Made by a program: the position numbers and the translations under genes
Assembly (NCBI GenBank): GCA_001548435.1
Contig: AP017308.1
Span: forward strand, 2,613,030 to 2,677,029
Source of the DNA: Leptolyngbya sp. NIES-3755
Lineage (GTDB): Bacteria; Cyanobacteriota; Cyanobacteriia; Leptolyngbyales; Leptolyngbyaceae
DNA: 64,000 nucleotides
Reading direction: 5' to 3'
Notes under the pieces: model-generated
What the model saw: only the letters and a program-made list of their open reading frames with translations
Told to the model about the DNA's origin: nothing
The model's database searches: none
Shown here: positions 41,225 to 50,386 of the stretch, piece by piece
How positions within the stretch are numbered: the stretch's first letter is position 1
Layout: each line of letters starts with the position of its first letter

Positions 41225-41593
41225 CTACAAAATTTCATCTACGACAACTGTACCGCCATCACAAAAATCAATACCGAGATGACAGTCTTCAAGTAGAGCA
41301 GTTCCAATTAGAGGACGACGACCGATGCCTAATACAACAACTTCACGCTCTACACCATTCCACAAGATCGTTGCGAGATAGGCATAAGCAGCAACACTAG
41401 AGTCATCTGCAAGATTTGCATCAATTCGAGCAACGTAGGGAAGACCAAGCTCACCAATGATCGCAGGCGGCAAAGTCAAAAATCCTTCAAATCCTGTATC
41501 CACAACGCACTCAACTTCAAACTCTGAACCTTGTGGAAGTCGAAGAATCACATTTATCCTAGCTTGCAGCCCAATCACCGTTCCATGAATCAC
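41225..41593 (-). CDS. Clan AA (retropepsin-like) aspartic protease, cassette copy 1
   Basis: A 122-residue single-domain protein. The active-site loop is VVDTGFEGFLTLP (DTG of retropepsins) and the partner psi-loop is RPLIGTALLED. One such domain would need to dimerise to make a two-Asp active site. The layout is the same as the protein at 48408-48779, with shared VxDTGxxGFLxLPxxII, ATIxWxG and GGxV positions. It is second in a two-gene unit, 3 bp after the small protein gene. The target is unknown; the partner gene is the obvious candidate. Confidence 0.8.
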   Translation of the reverse strand: MIHGTVIGLQARINVILRLPQGSEFEVECVVDTGFEGFLTLPPAIIGELGLPYVARIDANLADDSSVAAYAYLATILWNGVEREVVVLGIGRRPLIGTALLEDCHLGIDFCDGGTVVVDEIL

Positions 41594-41596
41594 GTT

Positions 41597-41863
41597 CTAG
41601 TCCGTCCTGATTAACGTTCCACCGATCGCATAAACCGCATTAAATCCAATTCGCCCAGCCCAGATTGGTGCATTAGAATGTTTTGCTTGTAAATGACGAC
41701 TGAGGACAATTAAATCATCTCCGATCGCATAATCACCCGTCTCAACATCGATCGAGATTAATTTGCCGATGTTCTCTTGTGTCTCGACCTTGGAGCGAAG
41801 ATTGTTATAGATTGCTCTACCTTGTTGGGTAATTTCTTCGCCACTGAGTTTAGGGTAAGCCAT
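41597..41863 (-). CDS. Small partner of the aspartic protease, cassette copy 1
   Basis: An 88-residue protein with the core GKLISIDVETGDYAIGDD and the end WAGRIGFNAVYAIGG. It matches the protein at 48136-48411 in EE...G..IY, GK..x.ID.ETG....D and RIG..AV...G. It is predicted alpha/beta without a known motif. It is the first gene of the pair, and the protease starts 3 bp after its stop. Possible roles are substrate, inhibitor or antitoxin of the protease; none is shown by the sequence. Confidence 0.75.
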   Translation of the reverse strand: MAYPKLSGEEITQQGRAIYNNLRSKVETQENIGKLISIDVETGDYAIGDDLIVLSRHLQAKHSNAPIWAGRIGFNAVYAIGGTLIRTD

Positions 41864-42014
41864 GCTTGTTAAGCTCCAAGTTTAGAGTTTGTCACTATTC
41901 TAGTTCAAATGATTTCTCGCAAAAGATCGAGAGTAAAACGGTTTTAGCGCTACAATAGGTGACTGGCGCACAAGGCGCACCCCTACCGAACCATTGACAA
42001 CTTGGGAACACAAT

Positions 42015-47962: not shown

Positions 47963-48135
47963 TTCGCACGCCAAGATTTTACGGCAGCGGACGCACGAAA
48001 GCGGTTGGCACTAAGTTCAGGATTATCTACCGTTGCGTTTTGCCATTGAGCGCAACCAACCTTAAATCTATGAATTAGACCGTTTGTAGAACATTAAAAT
48101 TGAATTCTCAGCAAGCTTTAAACGAGGTCAGATCG

Positions 48136-48411
48136 ATGACAGTCCGGCAACCCCGCTACAGCAAAGAGGAATTTGCTCGACGTGGTGATGAGATTTACGA
48201 AACTCAGGTGCGCCCTCAAGTCGAGGAAGGCAATCACGGCAAAATTGTCGCGATCGACATTGAAACCGGAGCCTTTGAGGTGGCAGACGAAATTTTGGAT
48301 GCGACCGATCGCCTATTTGAGCGTATCCCAGATGCCCAACCTTGGATCGTTCGCATTGGACATCGAGCCGTTCATCGTTTTGGTGCGCGGAGTTTGAGAA
48401 AACCCGTATGA
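48136..48411 (+). CDS. Small partner of the aspartic protease, cassette copy 2
   Basis: A 91-residue protein starting at ATG 48136, 7 bp after GAGGT. It matches the protein at 41597-41863: EEFARRGDEIYE, GKIVAIDIETGAFEVADE and RIGHRAVHRFGARSLR. An in-frame TTG at 48100 was rejected. It overlaps the protease gene in ATGATG (stop TGA at 48409-48411, protease ATG at 48408), so translation is coupled. Function unknown; likely partner, inhibitor or substrate of the protease. Confidence 0.78.
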   Translation: MTVRQPRYSKEEFARRGDEIYETQVRPQVEEGNHGKIVAIDIETGAFEVADEILDATDRLFERIPDAQPWIVRIGHRAVHRFGARSLRKPV

Positions 48412-48779
48412 TGCAGGGTATCGTTAATCCAAGCTGTGAAGCAACCGTTTCGCTGGTCGTTCGCAATGCAAATCGTCAAACCCAACTGATTAATGCCGTG
48501 ATTGACACGGGTTATACAGGATTTCTGAGTTTGCCGCGTGACATCATTGTGACTCTGAACCTGCCCTGGACGGGTATCGATCGCGGGACATTAGGTGATG
48601 GCAGCGAAGTCACTTTTGAAGTTTATGCCGCAACGATCATTTGGGACGGACAATACCGAAATATCCCCGTCAATGAAGCGGACACAGATCCGCTAGTCGG
48701 AATGAGTTTGCTGTACGGCTACGATTTGTTTATTCGGGCAGTGGAAGGCGGCAACGTCACTATCAAGCCGATCGAGTAG
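48408..48779 (+). CDS. Clan AA (retropepsin-like) aspartic protease, cassette copy 2
   Basis: A 123-residue protein. The active-site loop is AVIDTGYTGFLSLPRDII and the C-terminal psi-loop is DPLVGMSLLYGYDL. It matches copy 1 along its length (GDGSEVTFEVYAATIIWDGQYR corresponds to ADDSSVAAYAYLATILWNGVER). A single DTG means it should dimerise. Start may be ATG 48408 or 48411. It overlaps the small gene by 4 bp. nadC starts soon after, on the same strand, and may be read through. Confidence 0.83.
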   Translation: MMQGIVNPSCEATVSLVVRNANRQTQLINAVIDTGYTGFLSLPRDIIVTLNLPWTGIDRGTLGDGSEVTFEVYAATIIWDGQYRNIPVNEADTDPLVGMSLLYGYDLFIRAVEGGNVTIKPIE

Positions 48780-49707: not shown

Positions 49708-50043
49708 TTGGAACAAACGATCGACATTGCACAAATTTTGCACGATCGCTTGAGAGTATCTGAAGCGGTGATAGAGGCGTTTTGTCACAAATGGAATATT
49801 GTTGAATTTGCGCTATTTGGGTCAGTATTGCGAGAGGATTTTAGGGACGATAGTGATATTGATGTATTAGTTGTTTTTGGGCAATCTCATCATCCAAGTT
49901 TGTCAGGATGGTTGGATATTCGAGAAGAGATTGAGGCGCTCTTTGGTCGAAAGGTTGATCTCATTCAAAAAAAACTGTTGAAAAATCCTTATAGCAAAGC
50001 TGAGATTTTACGATCGCATCAGGTCGTTTATGCTCATGAATAA
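49708..50043 (+). CDS. mntA: MNT-domain nucleotidyltransferase, MntA-type antitoxin
   Basis: A 111-residue minimal nucleotidyltransferase. The motif GSX10DXD is exact: GSVLREDFRDDSDIDVLV, with the later acidic residue in RKVDLIQ. In MntA-HepT systems this enzyme attaches AMP units to a tyrosine of HepT and blocks it. The start is TTG 49708, set by the GGAGGG box 8 bp upstream. Its end overlaps the HepT gene, a typical two-gene toxin-antitoxin order here with the antitoxin first. Confidence 0.88.
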   Translation: MEQTIDIAQILHDRLRVSEAVIEAFCHKWNIVEFALFGSVLREDFRDDSDIDVLVVFGQSHHPSLSGWLDIREEIEALFGRKVDLIQKKLLKNPYSKAEILRSHQVVYAHE

Positions 50044-50386
50044 TCGTGATGCAACTTCGCTTTGGGACATGGTGCAGGCGATTCGACGCATTCAAGAATT
50101 CATCGGCACTCTCACGCTAGATGAGTACTTGAATAGTCTGTTGGTGCAAAGCGCGGTAGAACGTCAGTTTGAGATTTTGGGGGAAGCAGCGCGGCGAGTC
50201 TCGCAGGAGTTTCAAGGGGCGCATCCGGAGATTGACTGGCGAGGTGCGATCGGGCTACGGAATATCATTGCTCATCGTTATGAACAGGTTGAACAGGAAA
50301 CGATTTGGAGCATTATTAAAACGGTTTTGCCTGACTTGCTGAAGCAGTTAGAAGCCCTGTTACCGCCACTGCCTGAAGATGATTAA
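50030..50386 (+). CDS. hepT: HEPN-domain RNase toxin, HepT-type (DUF86)
   Basis: A 118-residue DUF86 protein (116 if ATG 50036 is used). It has the toxin motif RX4HXY as RNIIAHRY; R and H form the RNase site and the Y is the residue AMPylated by MntA. The helical pattern FEILGEAARRVSQEF and the end ETIWSIIKTVLPDLLKQL are typical. It overlaps mntA by 8-14 bp, so it is co-translated. Toxicity is inferred from the family. Confidence 0.9.
   Translation: MLMNNRDATSLWDMVQAIRRIQEFIGTLTLDEYLNSLLVQSAVERQFEILGEAARRVSQEFQGAHPEIDWRGAIGLRNIIAHRYEQVEQETIWSIIKTVLPDLLKQLEALLPPLPEDD

Follow-up and report, generated by a model that had tools for sequence, protein, structure and literature searches.

Two copies of a gene pair, a small gene followed by a gene for a retropepsin-like (clan AA) aspartic protease, lie in the 64,000-nucleotide stretch of the Leptolyngbya sp. 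NIES-3755 genome analyzed here (the window). The sequence features of the family to which they belong make it almost certain that this family is a self-contained cassette which brings its own promoter box, is taken up and rearranged by integron integrases, and also travels on plasmids. Decay of the pair is one-way: the protease is lost and the small gene is kept. The most likely function, for which we see about an even chance, is addiction-like (toxin-antitoxin-like), with the protease as the putative toxic member and the small protein as the putative antidote. Somewhat more tentatively, the pair may represent a new class of addiction module, in which a retropepsin-type protease toxin would be restrained by a small protein without a match among solved folds, and which would stabilize integron-bearing chromosomes and plasmids.

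Two copies of the pair in the window

The first-pass annotation, made from the letters of the window and its open reading frames, had pointed out two such pairs. Both were confirmed on the sequence with their coordinates (Table 1), and the four motifs it had quoted are all present in the window pairs. In copy 1 the small gene and the protease gene are separated by 3 bp, and in copy 2 the protease start overlaps the small-gene stop by 4 bp. The resemblance is beyond chance, as both proteases score above the TIGR03698 cut-off and the copy 1 small protein recovers that of copy 2 at E ≤ 2.4e-9.

Table 1. Features of the two gene pairs in the window.
Feature	Position	Strand	Remarks
Copy 1 small gene	41597-41863	minus	88 aa, ATG start; proposed antidote/partner
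Copy 1 retropepsin-like protease (clan AA, DTG)	41225-41593	minus	122 aa, GTG start; TIGR03698 73.5 bits
Copy 1 -10-like box TAGAAT	41897-41902	minus	34-39 nt upstream of ATG; read by eye
Copy 2 small gene	48136-48411	plus	91 aa from ATG at 48136
Copy 2 retropepsin-like protease	48408-48779	plus	123 aa; TIGR03698 59.1 bits
Copy 2 -10-type promoter box TAAAAT	48095-48100	plus	promoter-box scan (locus L023)
Decayed attC site upstream of copy 2	47969-48051	plus	25.8 bits; attC model and alignment

Searching the 6.76 Mb genome with the copy 1 small protein returned 11 small-gene copies (E ≤ 2.4e-9; a twelfth row, at E 0.87, was excluded from the count). For nine of these, the next gene downstream in the same direction is an intact protease, the copy at C1:5874000 has a frame-broken protease, and the copy at C1:4185253 stands alone. 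TIGR03698 finds 14 places in the same genome at E ≤ 10, seven of them above its cut-off. One above-cut-off protease, at C1:1760467, has no small partner and looks like a member of a different subfamily; its neighbors are presumably sufB and sufC. Because this partnerless clan AA protease is present in the same genome, the clan AA fold does not appear to be toxic as such.

The protease is a conserved clan AA peptidase

Both window proteases belong to the NCBIfam family TIGR03698 (clan_AA_DTGF; curated cut-off 57.35 bits), which we take to comprise prokaryotic single-domain clan AA peptidases of the COG5550/COG3577 type. The catalytic DTG was kept in all 66 distinct intact pairs, and the second motif, P[LVI][ILV]G, was found in 62 of them, the remaining four carrying a one-letter variant; the proteases therefore have both the D-T/S-G active site and the hydrophobic-Gly motif of clan AA and the retropepsins. 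Judged by dN/dS, both genes of the pair are under purifying selection, with values of 0.07-0.09 for the protease (4 comparisons) and 0.04-0.10 for the small gene (7 comparisons).

A structural model of a read-through of the copy 1 small protein and protease (mean pLDDT 86.8, pTM 0.68) had as its best Foldseek match the Rickettsia conorii retropepsin-like protease (PDB 5c9b, E 3.6e-5), a match that, going by its name, falls in the protease part of the model. The two differ considerably, with 16% identity; the Rickettsia protease is membrane-bound and, to our knowledge, has no small partner gene. By sequence, neither the protease nor the small protein had a convincing solved relative. Little is known of the prokaryotic ORFs of about 120 residues of clan AA type (PMC2642776), and in the part of that paper drawn on here no partner gene, integron context or function is named for ORFs of the TIGR03698 type.

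The small protein has no match among described families

No model in Pfam, NCBIfam or PADLOC, libraries that hold described families only, matched the window small proteins above noise. The same was true when 94 members of the small-protein family were compared with Pfam, one member matching HigB_toxin at E 0.036. Toxin-antitoxin models likewise gave nothing above noise for either protein of the pair (best PADLOC match, E 0.033).

The AlphaFold2 model of the copy 2 small protein (mean pLDDT 88.4) predicts a helix (residues 10-29), two strands (37-41 and 47-50), a second helix (53-63) and a third strand (69-73), and the same helix-strand-strand-helix-strand order is seen in the copy 1 read-through model. 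In a search for solved folds resembling the small protein, Foldseek found none at E ≤ 0.001 and VIA-align none above Z 2.7, an absence that is no proof of a new fold.

DUF5678 (PF18929) is another small domain with a retropepsin partner, as in the window pair. At locus L182:1435-2064 (reverse strand) a single ORF fuses DUF5678 (54.9 bits) to Asp_protease_2 (34.1 bits), and at locus L185 a DUF5678 gene adjoins a retropepsin gene. Membership of the window small proteins in DUF5678 was rejected, as they match no Pfam family (the DUF5678 gathering threshold is 23.2 bits), and DUF5678 is not among the 11 families that the 94 members match at E ≤ 0.1. With a DUF5678 set of six sequences, profile comparison with the window small protein was not significant (probability 5.6%), and through the plasmid sister type described below the probability was 43%. 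A second type of pair is found in the same genome at C1:1277300-1277900 (minus strand; locus L137), where the gene for a 75-aa protein overlaps that for a 133-aa Asp_protease_2 protein; the 75-aa protein matches DUF5678 weakly, at 15.2 bits, which is under the cut-off.

The pair as an integron cassette

Where close copies of the pair were compared, the similar stretch did not end at the protease but went on to take in an imperfect palindrome of ~85 bp. Sites of this kind were chosen by eye from the 150-bp regions downstream of the pairs: 21 were taken, five were dropped (L026, L030, L041, L043 and L117) and one upstream site (L015) was added, which gave 17 attC-type sites, sixteen of them following a pair and one preceding a pair. 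attC sites have been defined as imperfect palindromes of 57-141 bp with the form RYYYAAC ... GTTRRRY and extrahelical bases (PMC3053210). The 17 sites fit this definition, except that some have G where the second position calls for Y and others have decayed outer bases; the outer arms were the selection criterion, so their conservation is partly due to selection. Pairing in the inner stem, which has one unpaired column, reaches 92%, and in 5 of 9 pairs both sides have changed; over the whole structure, pairing falls from 87.5% to 26-42% in shifted registers. Two of five measures on the alignment (both-side changes and further pair types) were not above shuffles.

As a strict attC regular expression matched only 3 of 114 regions, a covariance model was used instead. 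With 150 of 1438 candidates scored, this model found at least 12 sites at E ≤ 1 in the Leptolyngbya genome, and sites near at least four of the 11 small-gene copies, in the same orientation as the pair. Of the ten attC matches on the main contig (at least ten in all), five lie within 1 kb of a pair, which none of 20,000 random placements reached; when the two training sites were set aside, three of eight did so (one of them a close homologue of a training site), again matched by no random placement. Among the best 80 of 367 loci, the model gave 27 matches in 19 loci, all 27 on the strand of the small gene. Eighteen of these were outside the training set, lying upstream or further along, and the nine directly behind a pair were all training sites.

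The only match of the model in the window is the site that precedes copy 2 by 84 bp in the same orientation, which is weak when taken alone (E 0.0012 for the window, 0.12 for the genome). Within the window, no attC match was found for copy 1, nor was one found behind either copy; the lack of a match for copy 1 and the restriction of matches to 19 of the 80 loci count against the proposed reading.

The genome also encodes an integron integrase (TIGR02249, 456.6 bits, at C1:4058409-4059398), and the same model scored above cut-off in 12 of the 20 genomes of the relatives set (the window's own genome and 19 relatives). In a related genome (G009), intI adjoins an array that contains the pair and has 14 attC matches, every one on the same strand; the three weakest score 20-27 bits. 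In the 10 kb around the intI of the window's own genome (C1:4056000-4066000; locus L178) there was no match of the attC model at E ≤ 0.1, and for this reason the cassettes of this genome seem to be scattered. For the family, cassette membership rests on attC sites behind the gene and on integron integrases, whether elsewhere in the genome or adjoining the array.

A transposon was also considered as the carrier. In a blastn comparison of copy 2 with the copy at 5.87 Mb, the 84%-identical region comprised the pair with 19 bp ahead of the ATG and 6 bp beyond the protease stop; this shared region holds no transposase, and the attC finding supersedes the idea.

A -10-type box (at least 5 of 6 positions) was present in 81 of 102 upstream regions, compared with 22% in shuffles, with the reservation that the regions are non-independent and that the shuffles preserve single-base content only. 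Relative to the start codon, 67 of the 81 boxes occupy -36 to -41 or -45 to -50.

Plasmid carriage and a sister type

The window-type small gene or pair was found on nine plasmid records. Six such places were inspected, of which five hold pairs and one has a protease remnant. The suggestion in the first-pass annotation that the pair acts like a mobile two-gene module thus gains support from the attC sites, the integron integrase and the carriage on plasmids; the integron mechanism for this mobility is a point beyond that suggestion.

A divergent small protein beside a second protease (locus L119) led to a sister type, which occurs on 27 cyanobacterial plasmid records (some being the same plasmid sequenced twice) and in two of 96 class genomes. 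Its genes are homologous to those of the window, with profile probabilities of 97.9% and 98.6%, and the sister proteases tested scored 38.7 and 41.1 bits against TIGR03698, below the cut-off. Among 20 sister-type places, 13 have an intact overlapping protease, two a damaged one and five none. At five places, four of them with intact pairs, the upstream neighbor is an annotated ParA gene. One sister-type plasmid locus (L217) has a weak attC match (26.4 bits) on the strand opposite to the pair.

Outside the cyanobacteria, the small gene was seen, among the best 80 of 367 loci, on contigs labelled Armatimonadota-type, Poribacteria, Latescibacterota, Planctomycetes and others, mostly metagenome bins. 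In a Poribacteria MAG (locus L095) a PIN-domain gene (34.7 bits) takes the place of the protease behind the small gene, and at locus L048 an orphan small gene is in frame with a truncated PIN-domain gene.

Decay of the pair is one-way

We counted intact and broken genes in the relatives set and in a class set of 85 further cyanobacterial genomes, from which the rows of 11 genomes already counted, the window's own included, had been removed. A protease was called intact when its match spanned at least 110 model positions in the relatives set and at least 104 in the class set, and the E cut-offs were 0.001 for the former and 1e-15 and 1e-6 for the latter. In these counts, contig ends can mimic absence and related genomes are non-independent.

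All 36 intact proteases of the relatives set lie directly behind an intact small gene. Of its 57 intact small genes, 36 are followed by an intact protease, 12 by a broken one and nine by none; seven further protease rows without a small gene consist of two fragments or broken copies and five weak partial matches. The class set gave the same picture: of its 29 intact proteases, 28 immediately follow an intact small gene, and the remaining one (genome G034) is 1.1 kb from its small gene, with a transposase-like insertion between them. The 42 intact small genes of the class set have an intact protease in 28 cases, a broken one in four and none in ten, and one more protease row is a fragment without a small gene.

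Over the 105 genomes, the conditions under which the first-pass annotation would have given up its idea (a small gene mostly found without the protease, or no co-occurrence across cyanobacteria) did not arise: 64 of 99 intact small genes have a direct intact protease, 16 a broken one and 19 none (one of the 19 being the case with the transposase-like insertion). The 64 intact pairs are two small adjacent genes with a gap of -1 to 19 bp between profile matches, a layout like that of a type II toxin-antitoxin operon. An intact small gene accompanies every one of the 65 intact proteases (64 adjacent, one parted), and none of the 65 has a broken or missing one, as for a toxin gene that is not kept without its antitoxin gene. 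Conversely, 34 intact small genes have outlived their protease, which is broken or missing (the G034 case excluded). Weighted by gene length, 34 versus 0 gives P 8e-9, so the length of the protease alone is insufficient to explain the difference; counted once per genome, 17 versus 0 gives P 9e-5, and both values ignore the relatedness of the genomes.

One such loss can be seen at the locus of copy 2 in a relative (G005), where the protease has disappeared but its two neighbors, the small gene and the next gene along, are conserved; upstream, similarity returns beyond a differing stretch of ~1 kb. No protease of the TIGR03698 type was found in this genome. The orphan small gene has a dN/dS of 0.10 against copy 2, a value that includes the time before the protease was lost.

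The best 80 of 367 loci, which were found via the small gene, hold 84 small genes, with 51 intact proteases, 14 partial or broken (some of the partial ones perhaps divergent rather than broken), 16 with none and three at contig ends.

Addiction and its alternatives

In the most likely scenario, IntI would place the cassette, promoter included, at attC sites or at secondary ones. Made first, the small protein would bind the protease and keep it inactive, perhaps, as a guess, by blocking formation of the homodimer that retropepsins need. Free retropepsin-type protease would harm the cell, and it would be set free whenever the cell lost the cassette or just the small gene. Because of this, the small gene would not be lost first, and arrays and plasmids with the pair would be stabilized; copies would die protease first, since the protease would harm the cell once the small gene was lost. 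Addiction thus predicts the one-way decay and would fit the carriage on plasmids and in arrays. Against this, the same decay would also be expected if the protease had no use apart from its partner, or if the small protein served a separate purpose; the orphan small gene of G005, with its dN/dS of 0.10, bears on the latter.

The main rival, which we regard as possible but distinctly less probable, is regulated proteolysis, in which the small protein would be a substrate, adaptor or activator of the protease in a signaling or processing pathway. A protease without a role when its partner is absent would decay first, and regulated proteolysis therefore accounts for the strict pairing as well as the one-way decay. 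It would also suit the conservation of the small gene after the protease had been lost in G005, and the natural fusion of DUF5678 to a retropepsin, an arrangement more usual for partners in the same pathway. However, up to 11 intact copies per genome, a patchy distribution among close relatives and carriage on cassettes and plasmids are unusual for a housekeeping pathway, and a promoter box is found at most copies. Together, the one-way decay, the promoter box and the carriage on plasmids and integrons appear to favor a toxin-antitoxin system over regulated proteolysis.

Defence against phages or plasmids, in which the small protein would restrain the protease until an invader frees it (abortive infection), is improbable in our judgment. 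It would be in keeping with the pair on the Nostoc sp. MS1 plasmid pNSMS101 (locus L197), whose position, between pglX and pglZ, is within a BREX locus, and with other copies that adjoin ParDE and a nuclease A inhibitor gene or lie near a RelE/ParE-type toxin gene; these contexts, however, make up three of the six window-type plasmid places inspected, and the PADLOC models gave nothing above the noise level reported above. Phage carriage was likewise rejected, as no relative of the pair was found in phage records or IMG/VR.

Least probable is a selfish cassette without cellular effect, whose longer, unneeded protease simply decays faster: dead copies are numerous (small-gene fragments make up 23 rows lacking a protease and one with a broken protease, some rows being pieces of one gene), but both genes are under purifying selection, the catalytic residues are kept and length fails to explain 34 versus 0.

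Relation to known systems

Integron cassettes that encode toxin-antitoxin systems in two ORFs, and cassettes with their own promoters, have been described (PMC8618304), and the window pair resembles them in having two ORFs and its own promoter box. The systems named in the references of that paper, phd-doc and ccd, have other toxins than the pair, and retropepsins go unmentioned in the part of it drawn on here. In open-access literature on toxin-antitoxin systems, clan AA or aspartic proteases, cyanobacterial integrons and DUF5678, we found no description of the pair in the titles and abstract openings of the matches listed, and it may be described elsewhere.

If toxicity of the protease and an antidote role of the small protein are borne out, the pair would be a first of its kind, as we know of no earlier toxin-antitoxin system whose toxin is a retrovirus-type aspartic protease. 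The small protein would then be a natural protein inhibitor of a retropepsin, one recurrent cyanobacterial integron cassette would acquire a purpose, and orphan annotations as 'clan AA aspartic protease' a role. Whatever the function, a little-known protease family gains a partner gene, a mobility mechanism and a rule of one-way decay.

The window holds a further gene pair ~0.9 kb downstream of copy 2, at 49708-50386, where a nucleotidyltransferase gene (PF01909) is followed by one for a HepT-like ribonuclease (PF01934); we take this to be a toxin-antitoxin pair of the known MntA-HepT type.
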